64,000 nucleotides of DNA from Bathymodiolus brooksi. Its lineage: Eukaryota; Mollusca; Bivalvia; Mytilida; Modiolidae. Below the pieces are notes generated by a model, which did not search any database, had not been told where the DNA came from, and saw only the letters and a program-made list of their open reading frames with translations. Location of the stretch: the NCBI GenBank assembly GCA_963680875.1, contig OY804579.1, positions 85,115,095 through 85,179,094 on the forward strand, written 5' to 3'. Positions 24,868 to 61,532 of the stretch are shown one piece after another. A program made the position numbers and the translations under genes. Within the stretch, counting starts at the first letter, position 1. Every line of letters starts with the position of its first letter.

Positions 24868-26163
24868 AACTATATAGTACACCAATGAACATACACAAAT
24901 ATATAAAGCATAGAGCTACATAGTACACCAATGAACATACACAAATATATAAAGCATAGAGCTACATAGTACACCAATGAACATACACACATATATAAAC
25001 CATAGAACTACATAGTACACCAATGAACATACACAAATATATAAACCATAGAACTACATAGTACACCAATGAACATACACAACTATATAAAGCATAGAGC
25101 TACATAGTACACCAATGAACATACACACATATATAAACCATAGAACTACATAGTACACCAATGAACATACACAAATATATAAACCATAGAACTACATAGT
25201 ACACCAATGAACATACACACATATATAAAGCATAAAACTACATAGTACACCAATGAACATACACACATATATAAACCATAGAACTACATAGTACACCAAT
25301 GAACATACACAAATATATAAAGCATAGAGCTACATAGTACACCAATGAACATACACACATATATAAACCATAGAACTACATAGTACACCAATGAACATAC
25401 ACACATATATAAAGCATAGAACTACATAGTACACCAATGAACATACACAACTATATAAAGCATAGAGCTACATAGTACATCAATGAACATACACACATAT
25501 ATAAACCATAGAACTACATAGTACACCAATGAACATACACAAATATATAAAGCATAGAACTACATAGTACACCAATGAACATACACACATATATAAAGCA
25601 TAAAACTACATAGTACACCAATGAACATACACACATATATAAACCATAGAACTACATAGTACACCAATGAACATGCACAAATATATAAAGCATAGAGCTA
25701 CATAGTACACCAATGAACATACACACATATATAAAGCATAGAACTACATAGTACACCAATGAACATACACAAATATATAAAGCATAGAACTACATAGTAC
25801 ACCAATGAACATACACACATATATAAAGCATAGAACTACATAGTACACCAATGAACATACACACATATATAAAGCATAGAACTACATAGTACACCAATGA
25901 ACATACACACATATATAAAGCATAGAACTACATAGTACACCAATGAACATACACACATATACAAAGCATAGAACTACATATTACACCAATGAACATACAC
26001 ACATATATAAAGCATAGAACTACATAGTACACCAATGAACATACACAAATATATAAAGCATAAAACTACATAGTACACCAATGAACATACACACATATAT
26101 AAAGCATAGAACTACATAGTACACCAATGAACATACACACATATATAAAGCATAGAACCACAT
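24868..26163. repeat. 46-bp minisatellite, about 28 copies
   Basis: The unit contains 'tagtacaccaatgaacatac' and 'atatataaagcatagaac'. Variants (aaatat / cacatat, agcatag / accatag) alternate in blocks. The array runs directly into the head of a SINE-B copy, so one end of the array abuts a retroposon. Confidence 0.95.
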
Positions 26164-27292: not shown

Positions 27293-27890
27293 TATTAGGA
27301 TCTTACTTATATAAGTACCTACAATCGTATGGTATTTGGAATGAACAATCTGACAATGACATCTCTGTCGATAACCACTAATGTTTGCGACAGACGTTGG
27401 TCTTTGTCGTGACTCTCGATTTGCCACCTCCAATGAAACTTGCCCTCACGATATAACACAAATATTGTTAAAAAAGTAAACTTTAAAGCCTAAATCATTT
27501 ATATTTAGAACAAAATATCTTTATTTTCGTGCATATCACTAACCAGTTTAACTTAGCTACATGTTGTCCAACTTCAGGACCTGTATTTTCAATGTTAAAT
27601 GCCGTGATTCTGTTTTTTGTTTGTCCTATGATTCGAGGTGAGAGGTGATTGTTCATTTTCTAGATATTGATGAAGTAGAATGTGGGTAATATTTATTAGA
27701 TATTGTTCTGCGGTCAAAATAAAAAAAATGTTTAATATTTGTTTTTGAAATATTATGATATTTTAAACAACTGTTTCACTTTAAGTAATGACCATTGTAT
27801 ATTTTTAATTTCAATATTATTCATTTTATTATTTCATTATAATAAATGTCAAGGTTTCCACAAGGACATACATCTTCAGTTATGCAAAAA
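27293..27890. other. Upstream region of the decapeptide-repeat gene
   Basis: AT-rich, with a degenerate SINE-like piece near 27330-27490. Possible distal regulatory DNA; no specific site is named. Confidence 0.4.
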
Positions 27891-27894
27891 TAAA

Positions 27895-27903
27895 CTATAT
27901 AAA
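27895..27903 (+). promoter_or_regulatory. TATA box of the decapeptide-repeat gene
   Basis: CTATATAAA lies about 70 bp upstream of the ATG at 27967. A start site would fall about 30 bp downstream, near 27928-27935 ('gtcatttcagag'), leaving a 5'UTR of about 35-40 nt. The box is inferred from position and sequence only. Confidence 0.65.
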
Positions 27904-27966
27904 TTGGGCTCTACTAAACAAGTCGTCATTTCAGAGTTTACTGTAGTATACAGACGAAGCTCGAAA

Positions 27967-30900
27967 ATGAGGAATCTTTTGATAATGTCGATGATGGCGG
28001 TGTGTGTAGCTTTAGCATATGCAGGTAAGAAAGAGGTTTTAATGTGCTTAGTTTTAATTAACGTATGAAGATGTCTTTCAAAAAATGAAATTATTTTCAT
28101 AAAGATTAAAGCATTATTTACTACATGGTTAACATTTTTCTCGCATAAGAAAAACATTCAAATAACCGCATCGTTTCACCAAGAGGAGAGGTTTGGGTCC
28201 ATAAAACTAATTTAACACCGCCACTTTTATTATTAATATATTATAAATTAAGGCTTACCTTAATAACTTCCAACCGCATCGGTGGCGTAATATAATGGTT
28301 AGCGTGCTCGCCTCGAGTGCGGTAGATCGTGGGTTCGAGCCCTGATCGGGTCAAACCAAAAGCCAATAAAATTGGTATTTGTTGTTTCTCCGTTAAGCAC
28401 GCAGTATTAAGCAGAAAGAGCAAGGACTGATTGGCTCAGAATCAGAATAATGTGCCCGAGTGGAGCGACATGTCTACTCGAGGACTATCGTTTCAGTGAG
28501 CTAGCACTATAAATATCCAAATAAGCGTGTTTGTTTAGTATAAAGCGGACCTCATCACCATCTCATTGATAATTAAATTGCTCTCGCCATGATATAGCTG
28601 CAAAATTGCTGAATTGGCGTTAAACAACAATCATTCACTCACTCACTCACTTAATAATTTCTTCTTTTGTTGATATCAAATCATCTGAGATGAACAGGAA
28701 TCGTGTTTTAATATGAAATATACAGTGAAATATTTTAACGACGAATATTTTGTCCACAAATTTGTATATCACGTCAAATGTATATCAACGAGAAGTTCCG
28801 AGTAACAATCTTATAATATGGCTATTACTGAATAAGCCTAGTTTAGACAGAGCAAATGTTTAATCACATGCCATGTCGTCACACGATAGATAGAAAAATA
28901 TGCAATGAATAATTGTCCAATTATCAAGTCTTTATGAAACGAAGGTTGGACCCGCCTTATTATATAGAAAATAAAATACAAAGTAAAAAAAAATATCACA
29001 CTGTTTAAATAAATTTAGGCTTTGACAAGAAAGACTACAGTGGTTATGGCTATGACAAGAAAGACAACAGTGGTTATGGCTATGACAAGAAAGACAAGAG
29101 TGGTTCTGGATATGACAAGAAAGACAACAGTGGTTATGGCTATGACAAGAAAGACAAGAGTGGTTATGGATATGACAAGAAAGACAACAGTGGATATAGC
29201 TATGACAAGAAAGACAACAGTGGTTCTGGATATGACAAGAAAGACAACAGTGGTTCTGGATATGACAAGAAAGACAACAGTGGATATAGCTATGACAAGA
29301 AAGACAACAGTGGTTCTGGATATGACAAGAAAGACAGCAGTGGTTCTGGATATGACAAGAAAGACAACAGTGGTTCTGGATATGACAAGAAAGACAGCAG
29401 TGGTTATGGATATGACAAGAAAGACAACAGTGGTTCTGGATATGACAAGAAAGACAACAGTGGATATAGTTATGACAAGAAAGACAACAGTGGTTCTGGA
29501 TATGACAAGAAAGACAACAGTGGATATAGCTATGACAAGAAAGACAACAGTGGTTCTGGATATGACAAGAAAGACAGCAGTGGTTCTGGATATGACAAGA
29601 AAGACAACAGTGGTTCTGGATATTACAAGAAAGACAGCAGTGGTTATGGATATGACAAGAAAGACAACAGTGGATATAGCTATGACAAGAAAGACAACAG
29701 TGGTTCTGGATATGACAAGAAAGACAACAGTGGTTCTGGATATGACAAGAAAGACAGCAGTGGTTATGGATATGACAAGAAAGACAACAGTGGTTCTGGA
29801 TATGACAAGAAAGACAACAGTGGTTCTGGATATGACAAGAAAGACAACAGTGGATATAGCTATGACAAGAAAGACAACAGTGGTTCTGGATATGACAAGA
29901 AAGACAGCAGTGGTTCTGGATATGACAAGAAAGACAACAGTGGTTCTGGATATGACAAGAAAGACAACAGTGGATATAGTTATGACAAGAAAGACAACAG
30001 TGGTTCTGGATATGACAAGAAAGACAACAGTGGTTCTGGATATGACAAGAAAGACAACAGTGGATATAGTTATGACAAGAAAGACAACAGTGGTTCTGGA
30101 TATGACAAGAAAGACAACAGTGGATATAGCTATGACAAGAAAGACAACAGTGGTTCTGGATATGACAAGAAAGACAGCAGTGGTTCTGGATATGACAAGA
30201 AAGACAACAGTGGTTCTGGATATGACAAGAAAGACAGCAGTGGTTATGGATATGACAAGAAAGACAACAGTGGTTCTGGATATGACAAGAAAGACAACAG
30301 TGGATATAGTTATGACAAGAAAGACAACAGTGGTTCTGGATATGACAAGAAAGACAACAGTGGATATAGCTATGACAAGAAAGACAACAGTGGTTCTGGA
30401 TATGACAAGAAAGACAGCAGTGGTTCTGGATATGACAAGAAAGACAACAGTGGTTCTGGATATGACAAGAAAGACAGCAGTGGTTATGGATATGACAAGA
30501 AAGACAACAGTGGATATAGCTATGACAAGAAAGACAACAGTGGTTCTGGATATGACAAGAAAGACAACAGTGGTTCTGGATATGACAAGAAAGACAGCAG
30601 TGGTTATGGATATGACAAGAAAGACAACAGTGGTTCTGGATATGACAAGAAAGACAACAGTGGTTCTGGATATGGCAAGAAAGACAACAGTGGATATAGC
30701 TATGACAAGAAAGACGACAGTGGTTCTGGATATGACAAGAAAGACAGCAGTGGTTCTGGATATGACAAGAAAGACAACAGTGGTGCTGGATATGACAAGA
30801 AAGACAGCAGTGGTTATGGATATGACAAGAAAGACAACAGTGGTTCTGGATATGACAAGAAAGACAACAGTGGATATAGTTATGACAAGAAAGACAACAG

Positions 30901-33049
30901 TGGTTCTGGATATGACAAGAAAGACAACAGTGGTTCTGGATATGACAAGAAAGACAACAGTGGATATAGTTATGACAAGAAAGACAACAGTGGTTCTGGA
31001 TATGACAAGAAAGACAACAGTGGATATAGCTATGACAAGAAAGACAACAGTGGTTCTGGATATGACAAGAAAGACAGCAGTGGTTCTGGATATGACAAGA
31101 AAGACAACAGTGGTTCTGGATATGACAAGAAAGACAGCAGTGGTTATGGATATGACAAGAAAGACAACAGTGGTTCTGGATATGACAAGAAAGACAACAG
31201 TGGATATAGTTATGACAAGAAAGACAACAGTGGTTCTGGATATGACAAGAAAGACAACAGTGGATATAGCTATGACAAGAAAGACAACAGTGGTTCTGGA
31301 TATGACAAGAAAGACAGCAGTGGTTCTGGATATGACAAGAAAGACAACAGTGGTTCTGGATATGACAAGAAAGACAGCAGTGGTTATGGATATGACAAGA
31401 AAGACAACAGTGGATATAGCTATGACAAGAAAGACAACAGTGGTTCTGGATATGACAAGAAAGACAACAGTGGTTCTGGATATGACAAGAAAGACAGCAG
31501 TGGTTATGGATATGACAAGAAAGACAACAGTGGTTCTGGATATGACAAGAAAGACAACAGTGGTTCTGGATATGACAAGAAAGACAACAGTGGTTCTGGA
31601 TATGACAAGAAAGACAACAGTGGATATAGCTATGACAAGAAAGACAACAGTGGTTCTGGATATGACAAGAAAGACAGCAGTGGTTCTGGATATGACAAGA
31701 AAGACAGCAGTGGTTATGGATATGACAAGAAAGACAACAGTGGTTCTGGATATGACAAGAAAGACAACAGTGGATATAGTTATGACAAGAAAGACAACAG
31801 TGGTTCTGGATATGACAAGAAAGACAGCAGTGGTTCTGGATATGACAAGAAAGACAACAGTGGTTCTGGATATGACAAGAAAGACAGCAGTGGTTATGGA
31901 TATGACAAGAAAGACAACAGTGGTTCTGGATATGACAAGAAAGACAACAGTGGATATAGTTATGACAAGAAAGACAACAGTGGTTCTGGATATGACAAGA
32001 AAGACAACAGTGGATATAGCTATGACAAGAAAGACAACAGTGGTTCTGGATATGACAAGAAAGACAGCAGTGGTTCTGGATATGACAAGAAAGACAACAG
32101 TGGTTCTGGATATGACAAGAAAGACAGCAGTGGTTATGGATATGACAAGAAAGACAACAGTGGTTCTGGATATGACAAGAAAGACAACAGTGGAAATAGT
32201 TATGACAAGAAAGACAACAGTGGTTCTGGATATGACAAGAAAGACAACAGTGGATATAGCTATGACAAGAAAGACAACAGTGGTTCTGGATATGACAAGA
32301 AAGACAGCAGTGGTTCTGGATATGACAAGAAAGACAACAGTGGTTCTGGATATGACAAGAAAGACAGCAGTGGTTATGGATATGACAAGAAAGACAACAG
32401 TGGATATAGCTATGACAAGAAAGACAACAGTGGTTCTGGATATGACAAGAAAGACAACAGTGGTTCTGGATATGACAAGAAAGACAACAGTGGTTCTGGA
32501 TATGACAAGAAAGACAGCAGTGGTTATGGATATGACAAGAAAGACAACAGTGGTTCTGGATATGACAAGAAAGACAACAGTGGTTCTGGATATGACAAGA
32601 AAGACAACAGTGGATATAGCTATGACAAGAAAGACAACAGTGGTTCTGGATATGACAAGAAAGACAGCAGTGGTTCTGGATATGACAAGAAAGACAACAG
32701 TGGTTCTGGATATGACAAGAAAGACAACAGTGGTTATGGATATGACAAGAAAGACAACAGTGGTTCTGGATATGACAAGAAAGACAACAGTGGATATAGT
32801 TATGACAAGAAAGACAACAGTGGTTCTGGATATGACAAGAAAGACAACAGTGGATATAGCTATGACAAGAAAGACAACAGTGGTTCTGGATATGACAAGA
32901 AAGACAGCAGTGGTTCTGGATATGACAAGAAAGACAACAGTGGTTCTGGATATGATAAGAGGGATTTTGGTTTTGACAAGAAAAACTGCGGTGGTTATTG
33001 TGGTTATGCCTATCGTTGGAGGGATGTCAAGATATACAAGTCTAGATGA
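27967..33049 (+). CDS. Secreted decapeptide-repeat protein (two exons, about 1362 residues)
   Basis: Exon 1 (27967-28024) encodes the signal peptide MRNLLIMSMMAVCVALAYA, with likely cleavage after AYA. The donor GCAG|gtaaga and the acceptor 'aaatttag' at 29018 join in phase 1 to exon 2 (29019-33049). Exon 2 starts GFDKKDYSGYG and then holds 131 ten-residue units (29021-32950), mostly YDKKDNSGSG, YDKKDSSGSG, YDKKDSSGYG and YDKKDNSGYS. The C-terminus is CGGYCGYAYRWRDVKIYKSR with two cysteines. Each unit carries two Asp and two Lys, so the repeat is a charge-balanced polyampholyte rich in Tyr, Gly and Ser. Every unit is exactly 30 bp. ATTAAA follows the stop. The composition suggests an extracellular structural, shell-matrix, byssal or mucous protein. 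That role is inference; I do not recognise a named family. Confidence 0.85.
28268..28655 (+). repeat. SINE-B in the intron of the decapeptide-repeat gene
   Basis: The best-preserved SINE-B: head 'taatataatggttagcgtgc', B box 'gtgggttcgagcc', body 'gagcgacatgtctactcgag', and tail ending in repeated 'cactcactcactcac'. It fills much of the 994-bp intron (28025-29018). Confidence 0.85.
29021..32950 (+). repeat. 30-bp coding minisatellite, 131 units with higher-order structure
   Basis: All units are exactly 30 bp. Variants are not random: an eight-unit block (240 bp) recurs at 29401, 30241, 31141, 31891 and 32131, and incompletely at 32731. The 29401, 30241 and 31141 blocks continue in near-identical order for about 28-30 units, so a period of 840-900 bp was also copied. 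Nearly all changes are confined to a few codon positions (N/S at residue 6, S/Y at residue 9, G/S at residue 10). Confidence 0.95.
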
Positions 33050-33229
33050 AGAACAACAGACAAAATGTGGCATTAAACACGTCCAGACAAGATCTGGCAA
33101 ACATATATACACCTTGTTGAACAAATGTTCATACTAAGCCTATTTATGAAAAAATTGACAACTGGCCTGATTCCTGAAAGTGTTTAAGAACTATTTAAAA
33201 TGTTTGAAAAGACCATTTGACCCCCACTT

Positions 33230-33476
33230 GTTTAACGCCACTTTCAACAATATTTCAGCTATATTGAGGCAGTCGGCTTCATTGGTGGAGGAAACCGGAG
33301 TACCTGGAGAAAACCATTGACCTGTCGCAAGTAACTGACAAACTTTATCACATGATGTTGCATCGAGTACACCTCGCCATGAACTGGGTTCAAACTCACA
33401 ACTTTAGTGGTGATAGGCACTGATTACACAGGTAGTTGTAAATCCAACTATCATACGATCACGACCACGACTCCCC
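33230..33476 (-). repeat. SINE-A (inverted)
   Basis: From 'gtttaacgccactttcaaca' to 'cgatcacgaccacgac'. It lies just downstream of the decapeptide-repeat gene. Confidence 0.85.
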
Positions 33477-33589
33477 CTTGTTTGTATATTATGCTTAATA
33501 ACCAATAGGAAGTGTGTTTATTACAGATTTTATGCTTTTTGATTTTGAAGAGTGGTACATGCTATGAAATATTCAAAAGAGTGATGGTC

Positions 33590-33770
33590 AAACAGAACAA
33601 AAAACAAAACAAAGCAAAACAAAAAATAAAAATAAAATATTTAAAAGCAAACAAACAAAGCAAAACATTAAAAACAAAACTAAAACAAAAAAAAAAAATC
33701 TAAAATAAAAAAAAAGAAAAGCAAACAAAATTAAAAAGAAATACAAAAAAAAAGTCAAACAAAATGAAAA
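33590..33770. repeat. A-rich low-complexity tract
   Basis: Dominated by 'aaaacaaaac' and 'aaaataaaa' runs. The lysine-rich frame across it is an artefact. Confidence 0.8.
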
Positions 33771-35144: not shown

Positions 35145-35716
35145 TTTTGGTGTTTAACGTCACTTTCAGCAACATTTCAGTTATATTGTGGTGGTCAGTT
35201 ATATTGTGGTGGTCAGTTCTATTGTGGTGGTCAGTTATATTGTGGTGGTCAGTTCTATTGTGGTGGTCAGTTATATTGTGGTGGTCAGTTATATTGTGGT
35301 GGTCAGTTATATTGTGGTGGTCAGTTCTATTGTGGTGGTCAGTTATATTGTGGTGGTCAGTTCTATTGTGGTGGTCAGTTATATTGTGGTGGTCAGTTCT
35401 ATTGTGGTGGTCAGTTATATTGTGGTGGTCAGTTCTATTGTGGTGGTCAGTTATATTGTGGTGGTCAGTTCTATTGTGGTGGTCAGTTCTATTGTGGTGG
35501 TCAGTTATATTGTGGTGGTCAGTTCTATTGGTGGAGGAAATAAGAGTACCGGGAAAAAACCACCGACCTTGCGCGTCACTGACAAACTTTATCACTTAAT
35601 GTTGTATCAAGTACACCTCGCCATGAGCAGAATTCAATCTCATAACTCTTGTGGTGATAGGCACTGATTGCAATGGTAGATTAAACTACCATACGATCAC
35701 GACCACGACGGCCCTT
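35145..35716 (-). repeat. SINE-A with an internal 18-bp expansion
   Basis: The ends are ordinary SINE-A ('gtgtttaacgtcactttcag' and 'gatcacgaccacgacggccc'). Between 'cagttatattgtggtggtca' and 'gttctattggtggagg', the 18-bp stretch has expanded to about 20 copies. Confidence 0.9.
35178..35532. repeat. 18-bp minisatellite born inside a SINE
   Basis: The unit is GTTATATTGTGGTGGTCA, with a 'gttctatt' variant. In other SINE-A copies the sequence occurs once ('gttatatcgtggcggtca'), so the array is an expansion of SINE sequence. Both strands are open across it because 18 is a multiple of three; I do not take those frames as genes. Confidence 0.95.
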
Positions 35717-36235: not shown

Positions 36236-36300
36236 ATGTTTTGTCACAAGTCCACGAATGTTGCAATTATTGTAATCATCACCTTGTGACAAAACACCAT
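36236..36300. repeat. Short palindrome
   Basis: The arms 'gttttgtcacaag' and 'cttgtgacaaaac' enclose about 35 bp. Possible small MITE or hairpin. Confidence 0.6.
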
Positions 36301-36424
36301 CCATTTGCTATTACAAGATTGTTGACTTTTGTTCCGCCACTTTTTTTATTGACATGTCTGTACTAATTAGGAGATATTTCGATTTTGTCATTTTGATATG
36401 TCGACGGCCAACATTTAGATCATA

Positions 36425-37200
36425 TAATATATACATACCAATACCTATCCAGCATACCTGTATACGGCCAAAAATTCGTTATATGTACCTATACCTATCC
36501 AGCATATCTGTATACGGCCAAAAATTCGCTATATGTACCTATACCTATCCAGCATATTTGTATACGGCCAACAATTCTCTATATGTACCTATACCTATCC
36601 AGCATATATGTATACGGCCAACAATTCGCTATATGTACCTACAAATATCCAGCATATCTGTATACGGCCAACAATTCGTTATATGTACCTATACCTATCC
36701 AGCATATATGTATACGGCCAACAATTCGCTATATGTACCTATAAATATCCAGCATATCTGTATACGGCCAACAATTCGCTATATGTACCTATACCTATCC
36801 AGCATATCTGTATACGGCCAACAATTCTCTATATGTACCTATACATATCCAGCATATCTTTATACGGCCAACAATTCTCTATATGTACCTATACCTATCC
36901 AGCATATCTGTATACAGCCAACAATTCGCTATATGTACCTATACCTATCCAGCATATCTGAATATGGCCAACAATTCTCTATATGTACCTATACCTATCC
37001 AGCATATCTGTATACGGCCAACAATTCTCTATATGTACCTATACCTATCCAGCATATCTGTAAACAGCCAACAATTCTCTATATGTACCTATACATATCC
37101 AGCATATCTGTATATGGCCAACAATTTGCTATATGTACCTATACCTATCCAGCATATCTGTATATGGCCAACAATTCGCTATATGTACCTATCTAGCATA
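36425..37200. repeat. 50-bp minisatellite, about 15 copies
   Basis: The unit contains 'cctatccagcatatctgtat' and 'cggccaacaattcgctatat'. A repeating peptide (about 16.7 residues per unit, cycling through three frames) is open for 280 codons. Without splice signals or codon constraint I treat it as non-coding. Confidence 0.95.
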
Positions 37201-39605: not shown

Positions 39606-42600
39606 TCAATCTAACAATGGATGTTGTAGACTTCCGGCCATCAATTCTTTCGAGTCCTTAACTTGATTGATTCCATATTCAAGATCATTCATATTCATGC
39701 TACGTAAATCATCAGTGGGAATCTCACTGAAAATAAATAAGATTCAGAAATATTAATATATATAACTTATAACTGGGTATATTTCAACAGTATATTTGTC
39801 ACGATTCCTCTTTCCATTTTAAATGGGGTGTCATCATTGTCGTGATCATATGGTAGTTGGATTTATAACTACATTGTACCTATGCAATCAGTGCCAATCA
39901 CCACTAAAGTTGTGAGTTCAAACCCCACTCAGGTGAGGTGTACTCAATACAACATTATGTGATAAAGTTTGTCATTGACTTACAACAGGTCAGTGGTTTT
40001 CTCCTGGTACTCTGTTTTCCTCCACCAATAAAACTGACCATCACAATATACCTGAAGTATTGTTGAAAGTGGCGTTAAATACTGTAACCCTAATATTTTA
40101 ATTTACGGTTGTTTGATCATCATGTAACCACCAATTGTATTTACAGTCAAACCTGTATTAAGAGGTCACTTTTGGAGCAAAGAAAACATGGTCTTATCAG
40201 ACAGGTGACCCCTTAAAAGAGGTTCAATTCGTATGAAAATTTCTATGACAGGATAAGAAAAAGGTGACTTTTTAACACAAGTGATTGCTTGATGTCTGTA
40301 ATTTAGACTGATTTCCTAATTAACTACACTGATGATTCTGGTTAAAAATAAAATAACTGAAAATCAATGAAAATTAGATGAAATCATCTTACCCCTCTTG
40401 TAAGGTCATTCCCACCAAAGACCACCCTCTTATCTGACCACTCCCATCAAAGGACATCCCTCTTGTCAGGCCACTCCCACCAAAGACCACCCCTCTTATC
40501 AAGTCACTCCTATCAAAGGCCATCGCTTGTCAAGCCACTCCCACCAAAGGCCATCCCACCTTGTCAGGCCACTCCCATCATAGGTCATCCTTCTGATCAG
40601 GCCCAATTTCAGATGCACTGAGATACAAATATACTACTATATTGTCCCACCCTCCTCAAGAGAGGCCATCCCTCTTACAAGACCAGATTTCAGATGCACT
40701 GAGATACAAACATACTACTATATTGCCTCCTCCCCCTCAAGAGAACCCATCTTTCTTATTAAGCCACTTTTTTCATAACAGAAGGGATGGCTCTATAAGA
40801 GGGGGACAACTGGAGAATTTGAGGAAAACCGCTCGTAGCCATTGGCTGTTGGCAATCCTCATTAAAGATATAAAGAATTAAATTACTGGAGAATAATATT
40901 GTACTTACAAAGCGTCAATTCCATATAGATTTCAGTACGGGGGACAACTGGATAGTAATATTGTACTTACAAAGCATCAATTCCATATAGATTTCAGTAG
41001 GGAGGGACAACTGGACAGTAATATTGTACTTACAAAGCATCAATTCCATATAGATTTCAGTAGGGGGGACAACTGGACAGTAATATTGTACTTACAAAAC
41101 ATCAATTCCATATAGATTTCAGTACGGGGGACAACTGGATAGTAATATTGTACTTACAAAGCATCAATTCCATATAGATTTCAGTGGGGGGGGGGGGGGG
41201 GCAACTGGACAGTAATATTGTACTTACAAAACATCAATTCCATATAGATTTCAGTAGGGAGGGACAACTGGACAGTAATATTGTACTTACAAAGCATCAA
41301 TTCCATATAGATTTCAGTAGGGGGAACAACTGGACAGTAATATTGTACTTACAAAACATCAATTCCATATAGATTTCAGTAGGGGGAACAACTGGACAAT
41401 AATATTGTACTTACAAACCATCAATTCCATATAGATTTCAGTAGGGGGGACAACTGAACAGTAATATTGTACTTACAAAGCATCAATTCCATATAGATTT
41501 CAGTAGGGGGGACAACTGGACAGTAATATTGTACTTACAAAGCGTCAATTCCATGTAGATTTCTATGCGCTTGTAATACTTCATGTACTCTAAATAATGC
41601 TGCTTGTCGACACCCTTCTTTTATATCACTTCCTGAAAACCCATCTGTTTCATTTCCTAATTTGTTAAAATCGATGTCGTTTATCTAAAAATAAATGTAA
41701 AAAAGATGGTTTGTTTTGAATTTGTGCATGTATATGTTATATTTATTATCATGTTTGTTATTCATGTTGATTAACTGATACAAAATTGCAACAATGAAAA
41801 TTATTGTAAAGTCAGACTCTCACATGCATACAACAGCCTGATCGAATAGGAGTGATTCTGGTTAGAAAATGAAATAACTGGAATCAATTAAAATAGCTGA
41901 AACCATCTACACCCCCTTTCAAACCCTCCATATTTGACCTGTTCAGATCATCTCCTGCACCTTTTGGAAAAAAATTTCAGGGGTTAATAGCTGAAATCAG
42001 TTAAATAATGAAAAAAATCATTCCTGATACAATATTAAAATGAAGCAATGTTTCATGTGGTAAGCAACAACAAAATTAACATTTTTACCTGTTCATCTTC
42101 AAGTATAATTTTCAGAATGTGTATTCTTTGCTCTTTAGCCTGTAGAAAAAAATAATTTGTAAAAATATATAGACATCAGTAAATAAAAAGTCAAAAAATG
42201 GATTTGGTTTTAGGTTTTATGGTGTTTAACGCCACTTTCAACAATATTTCAGCTATATAGTGGCAGTCAGTTTTATTAGTGGAGGAAACCAGAGTACCCG
42301 GAGAAAACCATTGACCTGCCATAAGTCACATAATGCTGTATTTAGTACACCTCGTCATGAACGGGGTACGAACTCACACCTTTAGTGGTGATAGGCACTG
42401 ATTCCATGGGTAGTTGTAAATCCAACTACGATACGATCACGAAAAGTCAAAAGAAATGCTATTTGAGGATGTATTATATGTGTTTAATGTTTACATTTCT
42501 TTAGTATAAGTGTAAATTTGGATATTCTCTCATGTTCATTTACATCCACATCATTACTAACTATTTATTGTATAAACTATAAGTTTTCCCAGTTTCAGTG

Positions 42601-45600
42601 ATTACAATAGTGTACATGTCAAAAATCACAATTAATCTAATTTATCCTGCAATCATGTGATTTTGAGTTCTTATAAAAGGGGGGGGGGTATGGTATTTAA
42701 CGCCACTTTCAACAATATTTCAGTTATATTGCGGCTGTCAGTTTTATTGGTGGAGGAAACGGATTAACTAGAGAAAACCACCGACCTGTCGCAAGTTACT
42801 GACAAACTTTATCACATAATGTTGTATCGAGTACACCTCGCCATGAGAGATTCGAACTCACAACTTTAGTGGTGATAGGCACCGATTGCAAAGGTAGTTG
42901 TAAATCCAACTACCATGCGATCAAGATCACGACAGCCCCTCTTATAAAAGGGTCAAATAAATGTCAGTTATCTTAGTCATCGACCTAATAAAGCTTTTCT
43001 GGTACCTGATTCATGTAGAGCCAATGGTAAAAATAAAACCCATTTGCACTCGTTGTGAAACAGGTCAGAAAAGCTTGCCAAAGGCTTGCCTATCTACCTG
43101 TCTTTAAAACTCTACCAAACAGATTATATATTTTCCTACAATATATATATAATCCATTTCTCATAGGATGAGATGTATTCTGTTTTTCTTGCTCATATCA
43201 AAACCAACTACATGTATAGACATAACATTGTATATTTAAAATCTTCAACTCATCTACAGTTTAATAAATAAAAAAACTTCAGGTCAACTAAAGGTAAGCT
43301 CAAAAATAACAAAACCCTAATTTTCTACATATATAACAAATTCAGAGGCTCGTCTAAGCCTGTTTCGCTTACTTGGTTATTCATGTGCAGTTTGGCTGCT
43401 GTTCCCATTGACCCCTTCATATCTCATAAATTTAATACTTGTGCTACAATTTATAACAGTTGATAAAAAAAAATATCTACCACATATATGCCAAAAAACT
43501 CTGGTGGTTTCATTTGATATTATTTTTTAAATGTATTTGCAAATTTTCAAATACTCTTTATACAACAAGGAGAGGAAAAGGTATTCCCCAATCAGACGTC
43601 AGTAATGAAATGAGAAACAAAAAATACCACCCTCTAAAACAATTCCAACATCTAATCAAAAAATCGTAGAAGTTTATAAAATTAATTACAGGTTTGCCAA
43701 TCTTAAATTGACACGGCATTCTTCTAAGGATAGCAGCATCAACATCCTGGGGTCTGTTTGTGGCCCCAATGATCATGATCTGACAGTTAGGATCTGTTAT
43801 TATACCGTCCCATAAACTCATGAACTGTGTTTTTATCATCGCTGTAGCTTCATGATCAGTGGACGATCTGGATCTCAAGAAAGAATCTATAAAATTAAGA
43901 ATAGTTTGAATATGACCTCCATATACACCAAAAACATCACAGCAGATATAGTATATATCTTAAAAATAGCATGTACAATCATGAATTGGTTACTGGTGAT
44001 ATATCTCCATTGGTCAGTAATATTGCTTAAAAGCCCTGTCTGTTGCTTTGAGTAATCTAGGAAGTGTTGCTTTGGAACATTACGATGGCAAAACATGTTC
44101 ATATAAGTTAATAAATCTATGCTATATAGAATAACAGTAGCCCCTTCTTGTAAGGCCACTCTCACAAAACAATATCCTTCTTATCAGGCCAGATTTTATA
44201 TGAACTGAGACAGTAAAATACTTTTGTACTATTAAATTGCCCCTCTGATGAGAGGCCACCCTTCATATCGGGCCACTTTTTCATTGTAAAAGCCTTCAAG
44301 GGGTGGCCTTACAAGAGAGGGAATACTGTGTAAGTTAAAAGTATATTGATCCTCAGTAACTATAATTAATTTTTAATTAGGTAAAAAACTACTAAAATAA
44401 ATTATAATCATACCTATTTCATCTACAAATATAATGGCTGGTTGAAGCTTCATTGCCTAAAACAAAAAAATATTGGTTTAATTTTAATTAAAAATTGTGC
44501 ACCATAATTAAAATATAAAGGAGGAGGAATGGGCGAGTGATTGTTGTCAAGTGAGCAATTTTTCAGGAATATCGCGGCGAGAACAAACTATATTCCGATG
44601 AGATGATGATGTCCACTTTGTACTACATCATAATCAGGTTGAGATGGATTTTATAGTCTTTGGTTTGACTCGACTGGAACTCGAACCCATGTTCATCTGC
44701 AAAATAGGTGACTATGCTAACCATTACACAACCGATCGAGTCAGAACCTGATAATATATCAACCACATCGATAGTGTAATGGTTAGCATGCTTGCAACGA
44801 GTGCGGTAGATCGTGGGTTCGAGTTCCGATCGGATAAAACCAAAGACTATAAAATTGGTATTTATTGCTTCTCCGCTATGCATGCAACATTAAGGAGAAA
44901 GAACAAAGACTGGTTGGCCCGGAATCAGGCTAATGTGTCTGAATGGGGCGACATATCTATCTGTAGACTGTTGTTTCAGCGAGTTAGCAGTAGTTCTTCA
45001 GATTAATTATATAGAATTTATGGAACGGAAATGAAAAAATTCGTGTTATTGTGAGAAATGCAAGGCCAAAACTGATAATGTGGTCACAGAATCTGCGTGA
45101 AAAAAATGTGAGACATAGAAAATTTGTGAGATTGTCCAAAAGTTTGCATCGTAAAATGCAATCACTGTTAAAACAAATAAATAGCATACATATACAAGAA
45201 GTAATTTAACATACATGTAGTAATAATAACAATGATCTAATCTGATGATCTATTTTTTTTTTTTTAATCTGACGATCAACTAATATCTAACAACATTTGA
45301 TACAAGGTCACATCAGAGGTCATATTTCAAGCAACCAATCACCGATGACCTTCAAGAATTATTGATGTACTGAACAGGATAGTTGGTGATTGTGATACCT
45401 AGTTAATTACATTAAAAAATGAAATGTAATTGATAATGATTTCATCATGACAGGTTATAACAATAATAAGCGAGTAGGTGCATTTACTATTTTAGCAACA
45501 AAGCCAGTAGTAAATGTGTCCGTACAAAAAAAACCCAGTATTTTTTAAATTTGTTTTATCACCATCTATTTGTTCTATTTACCTTTGCATTGTTACATGA

Positions 45601-48600
45601 ATATTAAAAAAGATATATTTTCATCATGCTTGATGGCATCAGAATTATTACCCACATACACAGATGTATAACAAGTCTGAATATCTACCAGCCTTAATTC
45701 TATGAAATTGCTTGGTAATCAACAATTTAACAGTATGAAAACAAGAACAAGCAATACAAACAACCAACTACAGTTGCATCCATTTCCAATTTTGTCTAGA
45801 TTCAGTTTATTGATCCATAACGAACTTCATATTTCAACAAGAGATTAAGTCTTAAAAAACACAGCAATTAAATTGACCACCATTAGTTTATAATACAAAA
45901 TATTATTAATATTTTACCTTACAAATGATCTTTTTATATTGCAAGTGGCACTTTTACCACAATTTAAAAACTAGAGGCTCAGCCCACTGAGCCTGTATCG
46001 CTCACCTGACAATAGAATGATACTGAAGCAAATTTCAAAGGGAGATAATCATTACCTTAAAAAACAGCAGCCATCTTGAATGGAGGGTGGGGCTGTCGGA
46101 CACAATTTTGAAAGGGACACACCCAGGGACCATCTATGCCAAGTTTGGCTCCATTTGGCCAAGATGTTTCAGAGGAGAAGATTTTTTTAACATTAGCCAA
46201 TCAGAAAAAAGAATTAATCTTGGCGGCCATGTTTGTAGGCCAAATGGAACGAAATGGAGAAACTTTACAGAGGACCTTACATAGATGCTTACTGCCAAGT
46301 TTGGTTCCATTTGGCCAAGTTGTTTCAGAGGAGAAGATTAAAATATGAAAAATTTAACGGACGGACGATGGACGCCAAGTGATGGCAATACCTCACATGG
46401 CCCTTTGGGTCAGGTGAGCTAAAAAAATTATGAAAAAAGGGCAATAACTCCTAGACGGGTAATCAGATTTACTTCAAAATTGCAGGGCATGTTGATCTTG
46501 ACAAGCTGAACATGTTTTCAGTTTACACTCAACATCTATCTCTTATAGTTTTTGAAATAAAGGATGAAAAGTATTAACATTTTTAAAATTTGATGAAAAA
46601 AAGGCAATAACTTCAAGATGGGTAATCAGATTTACTTTAAAATTGTAGGCTAGGTTGATCTTGACATGCTGAACATGTTTGCTGTTTAAACTTAACATCT
46701 ATCTCTTATAGTTTTTGAAATAAAGGACAAAAGGTATTAACATTTTGAAAATTTGATGAAAAAAAGGGCAATAACTCCAAATTGGGTACTCAGATTAACT
46801 TCAAAATTACAGGGTATGTAGATCTTAATATGCTGCACATGTTTGCAATTTTAAACTTAACCTTTATCTCTAATAGTTTTTGAAATATCAGACAAAAATG
46901 TTTAAATTAAAAAATTTAAAAATAAAAAAGGGCAATAACTCCTAGACGGGTTATCAGATTTACTTCAAAATTGCAGGGCATGTAGATCTTGACATGCTGC
47001 ACATGTTTGCTGTTTAAACTTAACGGGCAATAACTCCAAGATAGGTAATCAGATTTTCTTCAAAATTTCAGGGTAGTTAGATCTTCCTGTGCCGATCATT
47101 TTTATCCAAGTCAGATTTCTGATATTATTAACGGTTTTTGAGTTGTTACCAAAAACGTGCAATTTTACCATATGTTCTATTTTTAGTAACAGCGGCCATG
47201 TTTGTTGGCCGAATGGAACTAAATGAAGAAGTTTTATAGAGGATCTTACATAGATGCTTCCTGCCAAGTTTGGCTCCATTTGGCCGAGCAGTTTCAGAGG
47301 AGAAGATTTTTTTAACATTAGCCAATCAGAAACAAGAATTGCCCTTGGCGGCCATATTTGTTGGCGGAATGGGACGAAATGAAGAAACTTTATAGAGGAC
47401 CTTATATAGATGCTTTCTGCCAAGTTTGGTTCCATTTGGTCCAGTTGTTTCAGAGGAGTAGATTAAAATATGAAAAGTTAACGGACGGACGACGGACGGA
47501 TGCCAAGTAATGGCAATACCTCACATGACCCTTTGGGTCAGGTGAGCTAAAAGGTGTGTGCTATACACACAAACTAGACTGTTTTCCATATTTCCTTGGG
47601 CAAAAGGAGGTACCTTTTATATAACATGTTTATGCATCCATAACTACCATGTATATGGGCAATAAACCAAACATTACATTTTTAGATTAATCATTCTTGT
47701 AGGGTAGAAACTTATAAAGATTTCTCAAAGTTTCTATGTAAAAATCAATCCTTTCTGGTATGACTCAAAACATTTCAATGACCTAGATGTACCCACCAAT
47801 GAGAATACTGCTTCTGATCTTTTCTGAGATTCACCATACCATTTGTCTACTAATGATGAAACTTGTAGATTGATAAACCTACAACCTAAAAATAAGCATT
47901 GATATAATGTGGTATACAATGAAATATATTGTGACTGTGAACATTAGAACAGCAATGAAAAAAGCACATATAATTTATTTCTGCTCAAGTCGAACTTTCC
48001 AACTTAACACCTTTATCAAGGATTGTTTCACATGTAAAACTAAATGGCTGTTCTCTTCAATATCATACAATGTACTGAATGATGTTTAACATCATTAAGC
48101 TCAGTATACGTAATGTAACCATTTAGATGCACATTATACATTATCCCAGCTCTGAGCCAACTAGTATGTTTTATGTGAGAAACAATCCTTGCTAAGCAAA
48201 ATACAAAAAATGTAATGCAGAAAATTTGTTTGAATGTGATAAAGATGCCCAGCTGTAGCATTTATCAACAGAAGTAGAGTACCATACAACTGCTGGCTAG
48301 GGACTATCAACAGAAGTAGAGTATCATACAACTGCTGGCTAGGGACTATCAACAGAAGTAGAGTACCATACAACTGCCGGCTAGGGACTATCAACAGAAG
48401 TAGAGTACCATACAAATGCTGGCTAGGGACTATCAACAGAAGTAGAGTACCATACAACTGCCAGCTAGGGATTATCAACAGAAGTAGAGTACCATACAAC
48501 TGCCAGCTAGGGATTATCAACAGAAGTAGAGTACCATACAACTGCCGGCTAGGGACTATCAACAGAAGTAGAGTACCATACAACTGCCGGCTAGGGACTA

Positions 48601-51600
48601 TCAACAGAAGTAGAGTACCATACAAATGCTGGCTAGGGACTATCAACAGAAGTAGAGTACCATACAACTGCCAGCTAGGGATTATCAACAGAAGTAGAGT
48701 ACCATACAACTGCCGGCTAAGGATTATCAACAGAAGTAGAGTACCATACAACTGCCGGCTAGGGACTATCAACAGAAGTAGAGTACCATACAACTGTCGG
48801 CTAGGGACTATCAACAGAAGTAGAGTACCATACAACTGTCAGCTAGGGACTATCAACAGAAGTAGAGTACCATACAACTGCCAGCTAGGGATTATCAACA
48901 GAAGTAGAGTACCATACAACTGCCGGCTAGGGACTATCAACAGAAGTAGAGTACCATACAACTGTCGGCTAGGGACTATCAACAGAAGTAGAGTACCATA
49001 CAACTGCCAGCTAGGGACTATCAACAGAAGTAGAGTATCATACAACTGCTGGCTAGGGACTATCAACAGAAGTAGAGTACCATACAACTGCAAGCTAGGG
49101 ACTATCAACAGAAGTAGAGTACCATACAACTGCCAGCTAGGGACTATCAACAGAAGTAGAGTACCATACAACTGCTGGCTAGGGACTATCAACAGAAGTA
49201 GAGTACCATACAACTGCCAGCTAGGGACTATCAACAGAAGTAGAGTACCATACAACTGCCAGCTAGGGACTATCAACAGAAGTAGAGTACCATACAACTG
49301 CCGGCTAGGGACTATCAACAGAAGTAGAGTACCATACAACTGCCGGCTAGGGACTATCAACAGAAGTAGAGTACCATACAAATGCTGGCTAGGGACTATC
49401 AACAGAAGTAGAGTACCATACAACTGCCAGCTAGGGACTATCAACAGAAGTAGAGTACCATACAATTGCCGGCTAGGGACTATCAACAGAAGTAGAGTAC
49501 CATACAACTGCCGGCTAAGGACTATCAACAGAAGTAGAGTACCATACAACTGCCAGCTAGGGATTATCAACAGAAGTAGAGTACCATACAACTGCCGGCT
49601 AGGGACTATCAACAGAAGTAGAGTACCATACAACTGCCGGCTAGGGACTCAACAGAAGTAGAGTACCATACAACTGCCGGCTAGGGACTATCAACAGAAG
49701 TAGAGTACCATACAAATGCTGGCTAGGGACTATCAACAGAAGTAGAGTACCATACAACTGCCAGCTAGGGACTATCAACAGAAGTAGAGTACCATACAAA
49801 TGCCGGCTAGGGACTATCAACAGAAGTAGAGTACCATACAACTGCCGGCTAGGGACTATCAACAGAAGTAGAGTACCATACAAATGCTGGCTAGGAACTA
49901 TCAACAGAAGTAGAGTACCATACAAATGCTGGCTAGGGACTATCAACAGAAGTAGAGTACCATACAACTGCCGGCTAGGGACTATCAACAGAAGTAGAGT
50001 ACCATACAACTGCCGGCTAGGAACTATCAACAGAAGTAGAGTACCATACAAATGCTGGCTAGGGACTATCAACAGAAGTAGAGTACCATACAACTGCCGG
50101 CTAGGGACTATCAACAGAAGTAGAGTACCATACAACTGCCGGCTAGGGATTATCAACAGAAGTAGAGTACCATACAACTGCCGGCTAGGAACTATCAACA
50201 GAAGTAGAGTACCATACAAATGCTGGCTAGGGACTATCAACAGAAGTAGAGTACCATACAACTGCCGGCTAGGGACTATCAACAGAAGTAGAGTACCATA
50301 CAACTGCCAGCTAGGGATTATCAACAGAAGTAGAATACCATACAACTGCCGGCTAGGGACTATCAACAGAAATAGAGTACCATACAACTGCCAGCTAGGG
50401 ATTATCAACAGAAGTAGAGTACCATACAACTGCCGGCTAGGGACTATCAACAGAAGTAGAGTACCATACAATTGCCGGCTAGGGACTATCAACAGAAGTA
50501 GAGTACCATACAACTGCCGGCTAGGGACTATCAACAGAAGTAGAGTACCATACAACTGCCGGCTAGGGACTATCAACAGAAGTAGAGTACCATACAACTG
50601 CCGGCTAGGGACTATCAACAGAAGTAGAGTACCATACAACTGTCGGCTAGGGACTATCAACAGAAGTAGAGTACCATACAACTGCCGGCTAGGGACTATC
50701 AACAGAAGTAGAGTACCATACAACTGCCAGCTAGGGACTATCAACAGAAGTAGAGTACCATACAACTGCTGGCTAGGGACTATCAACAGAAGTAGAGTAC
50801 CATACAACTGCCGGCTAGGGACTATCAACAGAAGTAGAGTACCATACAACTGCCGGCTAGGGGCTATCAACAGAAGTAGAGTACCATACAACTGCCAGCT
50901 AGGGACTATCAACAGAAGTAGAGTACCATACAACTGCTGGCTAGGGACTATCAACAGAAGTAGAGTACCATACAACTGCCAGCTAGGGACTATCAACAGA
51001 AGTAGAGTACCATACAACTGCCAGCTAGGGACTATCAACAGAAGTAGAGTACCATACAACTGCCGGCTAGGGACTATCAACAGAAGTAGAGTACCATACA
51101 ACTGCAAGCTAGGGACTATCAACAGAAGTAGAGTACCATACAACTGCCGGCTAGGGACTATCAACAGAAATAGAGTACCATACAACTGCCGGCTAGGGAC
51201 TCAACAGAAGTAGAGTACCATGCAACTGCTGGCTAGGGACTATCAACAGAAGTAGAGTACCATACAAATGCCGGCTAGGGACTATCAACAGAAGTAGAGT
51301 ACCATACAACTGCCGGCTAGGGGCTATCAACAGAAGTAGAGTACCATACAACTGCCAGCTAGGGACTATCAACAGAAGTAGAGTACCATACAACTGCTGG
51401 CTAGGGACTATCAACAGAAGTAGAGTACCATACAACTGCCAGCTAGGGACTATCAACAGAAGTAGAGTACCATACAACTGCCAGCTAGGGACTATCAACA
51501 GAAGTAGAGTACCATACAACTGCCGGCTAGGGACTATCAACAGAAGTAGAGTACCATACAACTGCAAGCTAGGGACTATCAACAGAAGTAGAGTACCATA

Positions 51601-54600
51601 CAACTGCCGGCTAGGGACTATCAACAGAAATAGAGTACCATACAACTGCCGGTTAGGGACTCAACAGAAGTAGAGTACCATGCAACTGCTGGCTAGGGAC
51701 TATCAACAGAAGTAGAGTACCATACAAATGCCGGCTAGGGACTATCAACAGAAGTAGAGTACCATACAACTGCCGGCTAGGGATTATCAACAGAAGTAGA
51801 GTACCATACAACTGCCGGCTAGGGACTATCAACAGAAGTAGAGTACCATACAACTGCTGGCTAGGGACTATCAACAGAAGTAGAGTACCATACAACTGCC
51901 GGCTAGGGACTATCAACAGAAGTAGAGTACCATACAACTGCTGGCTAGGGACTATCAACAGAAGTAGAGTACCATACAACTGCTGGCTAGGGACTATCAA
52001 CAGAAGTAGAGTACCATACAACTGCTGGCTAGGGACTATCAACAGAAATAGAGTACCATACAACTGCCGGCTAGGGACTATCAACAGAAGTAGAGTACCA
52101 TACAACTGCTGGCTAGGGACTATCAACAGAAGTAGAGTACCATACAACTGCTGGCTAGGGATTATCAACAGAAGTAGAGTACCGTACAATTGCCGGCTAG
52201 GGACCGTTTTACACTCATTCCTCGAAATGAAAATTTTTATTTACTGGTCCGAATCAAATTCTTGAATTCATTTTTATATATTTCTAAATAAATACTGAAA
52301 AATATCATGGGTCAGAGCATAGTTTTACTGGTCTTGGACCGTGGTACCTGTGTTCATCGCGAGGATTGTGAGTTATGTTTATTATTGAAGACCCTACTGT
52401 GACATGTAGAACAGCAATAAAAGTGCTTTTCCTTTACTTTAATTTGTGTCAAATAAGTGTAATGTTGGATAGTCTCATGTTCATTTACATCCATATCCTC
52501 TCATACATGTACTAGTTAGATGTGCATGTACACAAAGCAAACAACCATCAGCTACATACAGCATAATTTATTCTGCTACCTCATTTTATTTTATTTTATT
52601 TTGTAAGAAAAATACAATGTACTTGGACCTTTGATAACTATTAAGTTTTAATTAAATATAAATTACCCAACTTTGGAATTTGACAAACCTGCTGCTTTTG
52701 CTGTTGCCTTGGCAATCATTGTTTTACCACAACCTGGTGGTCCATACAACAACACTCCTACAAAGTTCAATAAATAGAACATGAAGAACCATACTATAGT
52801 AATAAACCGTCTTTGCCTTAATTTTTTTCACCTGCTTGCCCGAAAGTCAAATTTAGAAACAATTTCTATTTATTCAAACAAATTCTTTTATAATTTTCAC
52901 TTGTCCGTGTCCAGTTTTACTTGTCCCATGCTTTGGGCCAGTGGGTTAGCGTGAAGACTGAATAAAACATGAAAGGAGTTAACATTATACCTGTTAAAAG
53001 ATTACTAAAGTTGTCAATTTGAAAACCGTTCATGGCGAGGTGTAATCAATACAACATTATGAGATAAAGTTTGTCATTGACTTACGAACGGTCGGTGGTT
53101 TTCTCCAGTTTCCTCCACCAATAAAACTGACCGCCACAATATAACTGAAATATTGTTGAAAGACGTGGTGTTAAAACACCATAAACTAAAACCAGACTAA
53201 GATTACCTAGTTAAATAAAATCTTAATGAATCATTATACATACTGTTTCCTAATATTTTCTTAATGGAACAATTAAAAAAATTCTTACGAGATGATCCAT
53301 TTACTATTTCTGAATCTCAACAAGTCAATTGTTATAAGAGATAAAATTAATAAAATCAAGCTAGTAAAATTTCTAAACACTTACCTGATATTCGCCTGGT
53401 ATGGTGCTTAATGCCACTTTCAACAATATTTCAGTTATATCGTGGCTGTCGGCTATATTGGTGGAGGAAACCTGAGTACCCTGAGAAAACCACCAACCTG
53501 CCGCAAGACACTGACAAACTTTATCACATAATGTTGTAAACCTCGCCCTGATCGAGATTCGAACTCACAACATCAGTAGTGATAGGCACTGATTGCATAG
53601 GTAGTTGTAAATCCAACTACCATATGATCACGACCATGACGGCCCCTAGCAAGAAATGATTTTCATATGATATATTTCAAATGAAGTAAATAAACATTAT
53701 AAGCTAATTTCATTTTAAATTTACTAAATAAAATCCATAGTTTTTTCTAACTAAAACAGTAACCAAACCTTTAGGTGGTTGTAGAAGTTTTGAATGAAGG
53801 AAGAGTTCTCTCCTCTTGAATGGAAAAATAACAGTTTCTTTTATTTGTTCAATGACATCTATTAAGCCTCCAATATCCTCCCATGTTATTGCCATGGAAT
53901 CAGGATCCACAAGGTTTACAGCAATACACAATTCATAGTCTGAAAGCTTATGAAAGAAAACATGGCCATTCAGATAAACCTTTAATAAAATAATTTATCT
54001 ACATAATCTTATAAGGGGGATTAAAACTCAACAATTCTCACATGTATATCTTGTACAGTTGAAACTCTGACAACTTCTATGGACCTCCATGTCACGACAA
54101 GCACCATACCAAGCAATTTTTACAATGGTTTCTTGAACAATTTGTATTGGTATTTTACCGTAATATACAGACTGAATACTGACAGATAGAGTTAGTTCCC
54201 TTTGTAGCATAGTTTAAGTTATATGAAAGGAGTTTTGTTATCACCAATGTATGGCCGATTCAATCAACAACAAAAAAAAACCCACAAATTAAGCTTTGTA
54301 AAAGACCACTCAGGATCATTCAATTCATATACCACATTAAATTTCAAACCACAAAGTTACATTTACGAACAAAAGCTCGACCAATCCAATTGCATTTTTG
54401 GCTTTGGCAGTACCGCCACCGGAATGTTGAATTTTGGATTGGTACAAAAATTACAAATTCTAACAAGGTTTTTCAATCGTTGCATCATTTCTATATAATT
54501 ATTAAATATTGTTGCACTTGTTCTCCTCCTGAATATTCATGAGATATTTATTGCTGGATGTTTTAAGTAACCAACAATTAATCCTTTTTTCCTTAAACAC

Positions 54601-60120: not shown

Positions 60121-61532
60121 AACACCTAAGTCTGTATTTAAAGACCAAGAAGCTGTTAAGTGTCTTTCCTCTCTTCATGAGAAATATATTATCGTTCCTG
60201 CGGACAAGGCTTCCAACAATATCGTGTTTGTATGTAAATCATATTACTTCGAATGCCTAATCAAGGAATTAGGCATAAATAGCAACACCTCTAGTAATAC
60301 CACATACTTCGTTCGACAAAGATGAAATCCTAGCTAACCACAGATCATTCATGACATCTTTAAACATTCCCTCTGGTAAAGAATCTGAGGATTTACCCTA
60401 TTTATATTGGATACCTAAACTCCATAAGATACCATACAAAGAAAGATACATAGTGGGATCATCAACTTGTTCGACGAAAGAATTGTCTATTCACCTGACA
60501 AAGATTCTGTCTGCAGTAAAAGAGGGACAACAGAAATATTGTGAAACTGTTTACTCGCGTAGTGGCATAAATCACATGTGGATTTTGAAAAACTCTAAAG
60601 ATCTTTTGGATAACCTTAAATCAAGATCTTTCTCTCAGGTATCCCCCATCAAAACTTTTGATTTTTCAACTCTATATACCACCCTACCACATGACAAATT
60701 AAAAACCCGCTTAAAAGAAACAATTCATAAAGCTTTCAGTCATAGAAACTATGGCTCAAAATTTTTTGTGTTAGGCTACAATTCCACATATTTTTCAAAC
60801 AAAATTCAAAAAGGTGAAACATGCTACTCCGAGGAACAAGTGATCAGTATGCTGGAGTTCCTCATCGATAACATATTTGTCTCCTTTGGAGGGACACTGT
60901 TTCAGCAGGTCGTCGGCATATCAATGGGTACGAATTGTGCCCCTCTTCTAGCCGATTAATTTTTATACTCATATGAGTCGGAGTTTCTTCAAAATCTTGT
61001 AAAAGATAAAAAGATTCATGAGGCTAGAGCCTTTAATTTCACATACAGGTATATTGATGACGTTTTATCTATCAATAATTCTAGATTTGCAGAATTTCTT
61101 CCATTGATATATCCTCCAGAGCTGGAAGTTAAAGAGACCACAGGTATAGCTTCGTCCGCATCATTTTTGGACTTATACCTCGAATTTGACGACAGTGGTC
61201 ATCTCAGTACTAAAATTTATGATAAACGGGACGACTTCAATTTTAAAATCATAAATTTTCCAAATATGTGCAGCAATATACCAGCTTCTCCTGCATATGG
61301 TGTTTACATCTCGCAATTGATTCGTTATGCAAGGGCCAGTAGCAATTATTCTGATTTCCTGAAACGTCATCTTCATCTGAGAAACAGGCTACTGGACCAG
61401 GGCTATGAAAAGATTCGCCTTATTCGATCTCTCAAAAAGTTTATATTCCGATACCAAGATCTTGTCAAAATATATTTCGTCTCTGCAGAGACGATGACAA
61501 ACGATGCATTTTCATTTAGTGAAAATGTATAA
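60121..61532 (+). pseudogene. Penelope-like element reverse transcriptase, nearly intact
   Basis: The N-terminal part has IIVPADKASNNIVFV, the PADK motif typical of Penelope-like RTs. A frame change near 60312 is followed by an open run from about 60318. Motifs follow: YLYWIPKLHKIPYKERYI, STCSTKELSIHL, FDFSTLYTTLPH (motif A), 'VVGISMGTNCAPLLAD' (motif B), then an in-frame TAA (60957-60959). The same frame goes on with 'YRYIDDVLSI' (catalytic motif C, Y.DD), 'FLDLYLEFDDSGHLSTKIYD' and 'RYARASSNYSDFLKRH' to FSFSENV. I see no GIY-YIG endonuclease after it, so it is either endonuclease-lacking or truncated. One nonsense change and one frameshift mark it as dead but recent. Confidence 0.8.

Follow-up and report, generated by a model that had tools for sequence, protein, structure and literature searches.

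Gene model

Does a long tandem array in a bivalve genome belong to a gene and, if so, what sort of product would it make? The question is raised by a 64,000-nucleotide stretch of Bathymodiolus brooksi DNA (contig OY804579.1, forward-strand positions 85,115,095 to 85,179,094; hereafter the window), in which 131 uninterrupted units of 30 bp can be read as a decapeptide with the consensus YDKKDNSGSG. A first-pass annotation of this DNA had proposed that a signal exon is spliced in phase 1 to an exon of about 4 kb, which encodes the 131 units and a short Cys/Tyr C-terminus. The coordinates, the phase and the unit count were all confirmed and, judged by gene anatomy and a scan for signal exons, a gene of two exons for a secreted repeat protein remains the best model. 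We favor, with a probability of roughly 0.6, the reading that this is a real animal gene with two exons for a secreted, disordered, charge-balanced structural polymer of Tyr, Lys and Asp that condenses and is cross-linked through Tyr. The model is made up of the following features.

27896..27902, plus strand: TATA-box-like TATATAA, the sole TATA[AT]A match in 27701-27967, beginning 71 nt 5' of the ATG
27967..28024, plus strand: coding part of exon 1, predicted signal peptide MRNLLIMSMMAVCVALAYA plus 1 nt (phase 1), donor CAG/GTAAGA
28025..29018, plus strand: intron of 994 bp, GT..AG, with a tRNA-like insertion of short interspersed element (SINE) type inside, head at 28281
29019..33049, plus strand: exon 2, comprising 131 decapeptide units, a Tyr/Cys/basic tail and a TGA stop
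29021..32950, plus strand: tandem array, 131 x 30 bp, with higher-order periodicities of 60 bp and of 28-30 units
32951..33046, plus strand: C-terminus of 32 residues, YDKRDFGFDKKNCGGYCGYAYRWRDVKIYKSR, with two Cys, starting with a diverged unit-like sequence
33072..33077, plus strand: ATTAAA, candidate polyadenylation signal, the sole A[AT]TAAA match in 33050-33600, beginning 23 nt past the stop

The reading frame opens with the ATG at 27967 and closes with the TGA at 33047-33049. Exon 1 contributes 58 nt, that is, 19 codons plus 1 nt, and ends at 28024 before GTAAGA; the splice junction is likely to coincide with the predicted signal cleavage site (AYA/G). The acceptor AG occupies 29017-29018, 2 nt 5' of the first repeat unit. 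As had been claimed, the true frame of exon 2 has no start codon, its Met count being zero.

Open frames and the case for coding

The first-pass annotation had also drawn attention to two shadow frames, one on each strand, that are open across the array and would be called in place of the true frame. Long open frames do exist, but there are three of them, so that four of the six frames are open over the array. We judge the following three to be non-coding.

29019..33137, plus strand: shadow frame of 1372 codons, unit TRKTTVVLDM
29015..33133, minus strand: shadow frame of 1372 codons
28932..33026, minus strand: second shadow frame on this strand, 1364 codons

The weight given to these frames had, however, been overstated. 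Random 30-mers with the base composition of the array leave on average 3.4 of six frames open, four being the commonest number, narrowly over three; with the base composition of the window the mean is 2.9, and 30% leave four or more open. Since random 30-mers leave similar numbers open, the openness of the frames was rejected as evidence: it says nothing about coding and is a by-product expected of a homogeneous 30-bp repeat. The tandem array itself is without doubt beyond chance.

The case for coding rests on the signal-peptide exon with its phase-1 donor. Both strands were scanned for a phase-1 GTRAG donor preceded by an ATG, a basic residue, a hydrophobic core and, at -3/-1, small residues; a single match was found in the window, whereas 60 order-1 simulated windows gave a mean of 0.05 each. 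The thresholds of this filter were chosen after the sequence was known and are therefore favorable to the match, and an earlier, stricter filter had returned nothing, not even exon 1.

Could the array instead be a minisatellite without coding function that yields no protein and lies only by chance 3' of a stretch resembling a signal peptide? Several other minisatellites occur in the window, the open frames are what chance would give, and the private point variants of interior units are nonsynonymous in five cases out of five, all of which is consistent with this explanation. Against it, and in support of coding, a signal peptide, a strong donor, a matching phase, an in-frame acceptor near the first unit, an in-frame tail and a stop all coincide, with the TATA-like box and the ATTAAA suitably placed. 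We consider a chance minisatellite quite improbable.

Composition, charge and repeat units

Unit composition, charge pattern and Tyr spacing can, like the gene anatomy, be read directly from the DNA. The precursor has 1362 residues and the mature chain 1343 (computed 145.6 kDa, pI 8.2), of which 1329 (99%) are S, K, D, G, Y or N; Pro and Thr are absent from the mature protein. A Lys-Lys pair is flanked by two Asp in nearly every unit. The fraction of charged residues (FCR) is 0.40, the net charge per residue (NCPR) 0.006 and the charge-patterning parameter kappa about 0.02, which bears out, as near-neutral, the earlier description of a neutral polyampholyte with two Asp and two Lys per unit. 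The regular spacing of Tyr held up as well: the 185 Tyr are separated by 184 intervals, mostly of 10 residues (83) or of 8 (47) plus 2 (49). Among the 274 tryptic pieces, DNSGSGYDK is predicted 63 times, DNSGYSYDK 28, DSSGYGYDK 15 and DSSGSGYDK 14 times.

The units fall into 15 types, the commonest being YDKKDNSGSG (65/131), YDKKDNSGYS (27/131), YDKKDSSGSG (14/131) and YDKKDSSGYG (14/131). Codons 3, 4, 5 and 7 (K, K, D, S) are identical in all 131 units, D stands at position 2 in 129 and Tyr at position 1 in 130. Common types vary silently (codon 8: GGT 102, GGA 29; codon 10: AGC 18, AGT 11). Nine types are found once each: A, C and D lie at the 5' edge, O is a mixture of common types, and J, K, L, M and N are interior point variants. 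Identical types recur more often than the 0.29 expected by chance at lags 2, 4, 6 and 8 (0.34-0.42), at lag 28 (0.44) and at lag 30 (0.47), and an exact block of 25 units repeats at lag 30. The units are thus homogenised and, since types recur at even lags and at 28 and 30, growth of the array seems to have proceeded in 60-bp dimers as well as through recent duplications of large blocks. Consequently, its length may vary in the animal or be mis-assembled.

The chain is also rich in Ser-Gly. There are 212 SG dipeptides, 132 of them shortly after an acidic residue, and 103 SGxG, with no N-glycosylation sequon. Glycosaminoglycan attachment sites have SG with acidic residues nearby as their core, and a combined-term literature search on this gave no match. 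The product might accordingly be a densely glycosylated gel former with glycosaminoglycan or O-glycan chains on its Ser-Gly dipeptides, a serglycin-like proteoglycan or the mucin core of a mucus, rather than a polymer cured through Tyr. Two Lys lie close N-terminal of each site, however, which may disfavor xylosyltransferase; the chain has none of the Thr or Pro of mucin repeats; and the regular Tyr spacing would be left without a role. This explanation is in our view unlikely.

Calcium-binding repeats were rejected, as the mature chain contains neither the RTX nonapeptide GGxGxDxUx nor a PROSITE EF-hand loop (0 of each); the loosened pattern [GS]GxGxD matches 100 times.

Search for relatives

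The first-pass annotation had called for a database search with the unit and had stated that it knew of no named family with this unit. Protein searches covered about 5.8 billion proteins, at E 0.001 (1686 candidates) and twice at E 10 (437 and 8 candidates); no relative was found up to E 10 among proteins of 0.55-1.75 times the query length, the only ones admitted, in a collection whose mollusc coverage is uncertain. NCBIfam profiles gave no family, Rfam and tRNA searches gave no match, exact searches for unit DNA patterns returned 0 in prokaryote and 0 in viral contigs, and none of five unit forms occurred anywhere in the texts of the 5.39 million papers covered by a full-text literature search (supplements not searched). 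The search thus brought up no family or relative bearing the unit, and to this extent the statement stood.

It needs a qualification for Pfam, where PF23348 (RDM3_C, plant) matches the frame at 29009-33046 in four stretches with E 2.5e-82 and 275.7 bits, against a cut-off of 35. The first 40 units score 96.5 bits, shuffled, reversed and unit-permuted controls give 0/3 at E 1, and the match is not a mere effect of composition. PF23348 represents the C-terminal repeats of plant RDM3/KTF1, nuclear proteins without a signal peptide and with SPT5-like domains upstream, in which a WG/GW hallmark binds Argonaute. WG or GW dipeptides number 0 in the 1343 residues. Membership was ruled out by this absence together with the signal peptide predicted upstream, and for the same two reasons the resemblance is best read as a probable convergence on a short aromatic-x-K-K-D unit. 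No other Pfam family reached E 0.01 in the exon-2 frame, and none was found in the open reading frame (ORF) around exon 1.

The sole row returned at E 10, database protein P0002 (E 9.7), was rejected as functional evidence: it matches the DNA of the window itself from 27739 on, reading the exon-1 region straight into the intron, and is listed with two contigs of at most 1451 bases. It departs from positions 27739-28233 only by a start M at TTG, a W at TGA and an E at TAA, and it seems that the DNA of this region is present elsewhere in short contigs that were called with an odd code. Four PDB sequences appeared at E up to 1, namely two DotG/IcmE chains (3e-13), SAKe6BE-L1 (2.6e-8) and one at 0.52; we judge these rows to be probable low-complexity matches.

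Predicted structure

AlphaFold2 models of the last 232 residues in the true frame show stacked strands in the best of five, with a predicted local distance difference test (pLDDT) of 59 and a predicted template-modelling score (pTM) of 0.49; the other models have pLDDT 34-40. The plus-strand shadow frame of the same stretch gave pLDDT 85 and pTM 0.80. AlphaFold2 is described as biased towards beta-solenoids for repeats (PMC11795689). The beta-solenoid model carries little weight, because the control, a frame judged non-coding, folds with higher confidence. A PDB fold search with the true-frame model gave no match at E 0.001 and 19 at E 10, headed by a Dot/Icm chain (E 0.2). The composition (FCR, NCPR and kappa as above) argues for a chain that is probably disordered rather than a beta-solenoid.

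Proposed mode of action and known secreted repeat proteins

Were the gene expressed, in whichever tissue, the short exon would provide the signal peptide and phase-1 splicing would join it to the large repeat exon. The secreted chain would be disordered and hydrated, with Ser-Gly as flexible linkers, and its evenly mixed positive and negative charges with periodic Tyr 'stickers' could bring it together as a condensate inside secretory granules. Once released, the chain might be cross-linked through Tyr, either directly or after oxidation to 3,4-dihydroxyphenylalanine (DOPA), and through Lys, the two terminal Cys serving as a further joint. The end product would be a cohesive gel, a glue or a hardened organic layer.

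There are precedents for such a material. Mussel mfp-1 is a secreted decapeptide array whose Tyr is largely DOPA, and the coating to which it contributes is described as pre-organised as a condensed liquid in secretory vesicles (PMC7018715). The predicted protein resembles mfp-1 in being secreted, in its long ten-residue array, in having two Lys and one or two Tyr per unit and in using few residue types; a decapeptide array with Tyr and Lys is what we found (131 units, Tyr at position 1 in 130 and Lys at positions 3 and 4 in all). The AKPSYPPTYK-like unit of mfp-1 contains Pro and Thr and no Asp, whereas the array has Gly, Ser and Asn as filler. The lack of Asp makes mfp-1 basic, while here two Asp balance two Lys. 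In the sandcastle worm, acidic and basic cement proteins coacervate, and the cement includes the highly repetitive, DOPA-bearing Pc-1 and Pc-2 (PMC4275877). These worms mix separate polycations and polyanions, whereas here both charges are on a single chain. Pc-1 is likewise secreted, highly repetitive and DOPA-bearing, and its unit VGGYGYGGKK (a string absent from the 10 papers listed in a literature search) resembles the GYGYDKK stretches in the first units of the array; Pc-1 is basic, and its unit lacks Asp.

By analogy, we infer that the protein may work as mfp-1 or Pc-1 do, as a secreted polymer, condensing first and curing through Tyr afterwards; kinship to them is not claimed. Secreted repeat proteins of this sort are familiar, and the predicted one is a lineage-specific variant. 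A more specific possibility, which we put forward tentatively as somewhat doubtful, is a one-chain cement that coacervates by itself: with matched Lys pairs and Asp and a Tyr sticker in every ten residues, it could condense, wet a surface and cure alone. This would be a lineage-specific material protein of the kind that gene finders overlook, because the frame of the large exon has no start codon.

Mollusc shell-matrix proteins offer another comparison. KRMP, shematrin and the abalone RLCD proteins share with the predicted protein a signal peptide and a repetitive, disordered chain rich in Lys or in Gly/Tyr; their repeats, judged by description, differ from the YDKKDNSGSG-type unit. The product might thus be a framework protein of the organic matrix of shell or operculum, whose repeats would contact mineral or acidic proteins of the matrix and become an insoluble layer on tanning. 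Abalone shell proteomes are described as holding many secreted, disordered tandem-repeat proteins (PMC6003135, PMC2989941), and pearl-oyster KRMPs pair a Lys-rich with a Gly/Tyr-rich region and are thought to polymerise by cross-linking (PMC3120837). In KRMPs, however, Lys and Gly/Tyr are kept in two regions, whereas here K, D, G and Y are intermixed within each ten residues, and the five unit strings were absent from the literature as described above. DKK and KKD gave 0 matches in the accessible text of the two abalone papers (PMC6003135, PMC2989941), a count of little weight since only word starts were matched. We regard a shell-matrix role as an unlikely alternative to a condensing, Tyr-cured polymer.

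Several points weigh against the reading that we favor. The polypyrimidine tract of the acceptor is poor, and with no homologue found in the protein searches there is no argument from conservation. In the variation among units, no trace of purifying selection on the true frame can be seen: the interior single-copy variants J, K, L, M and N are the five nonsynonymous changes, and for none of the nine single-copy types is a silent change the sole difference from a common type. About three quarters of random changes are nonsynonymous, so that five out of five is not significant. The array has 0 frame slips in 131 units, compared with 3 in the approximately 94 copies of an intronic 42-bp array in the window; since five of the seven other window arrays examined, all five shorter, are also free of slips, this lends only mild support to coding. 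Both the mussel and the sandworm analogues are basic, and this array is neutral. Finally, the adhesive-mucus candidates of limpets are, in the available text of PMC7333891, large multi-domain proteins and not simple repeat chains, so that a gastropod glue of this sort is without precedent there.

If expressed, a charge-balanced tyrosine decapeptide polymer would join the known natural glues and gels, and its simple unit suits recombinant or synthetic production. The locus would also exemplify a class of genes that are likely to be mis-annotated, in which a short signal exon precedes a huge repeat exon with three false open frames and a true frame devoid of Met.

Neighborhood

The repeat gene is oriented towards an ordinary animal gene, ATAD1-like, and lies downstream of it. 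This gene was recognised by a minus-strand ORF at 43561-43959 that matches outer mitochondrial transmembrane helix translocase (E 4.7e-29).

41642-53787, minus strand: AAA ATPase gene of the ATAD1/Msp1 type, its exons marked by LLQPPKG (53787), Walker A (52743), WYGES (47841), the Walker B region (43561-43959) and GFSGSD (41642)

Its 3' end was not found, and the repeat gene may be nested within it. The 42-bp array (48263-52204, approximately 94 copies, 3.9 kb) has long open stretches on both strands and the three slips mentioned; it is apparently intronic, because ATAD1-like motifs (52743, 47841) lie on either side of it.

Also present in the window are dispersed repeats that have CACTCACTCA tails and tRNA-like heads. 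Repeats of this look suggest a mollusc host; a literature search with a fragment of them brought up only unrelated papers. One head lies at 28281 (plus strand) in the intron of the repeat gene, within what is presumably a SINE; weaker ones at 26160 and 44765 (plus) and 27275 (minus) share 43, 47 and 49 of 62 bases with it. Among 19 other ORFs, Pfam gave two matches above cut-off, the AAA domain at 43561-43959 and a reverse-transcriptase fragment at 380-1096 (RVT_1, E 2.7e-19), and one just below. Frames with a YDKRDDF motif at 18149 (minus) and 61218 (plus) may be retroelement remnants; Pfam found nothing in 60960-61529. Two further arrays are shorter. One, of 18 bp (35177-35530, about 20 copies), is open in three plus frames, with QLYCGG, SYIVVV or SVILWW units, and in one minus frame. 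The other, of 50 bp (36436-37192, 15 copies), has one plus frame open for 306 codons (36276-37196), since three times 50 bp makes 50 codons.

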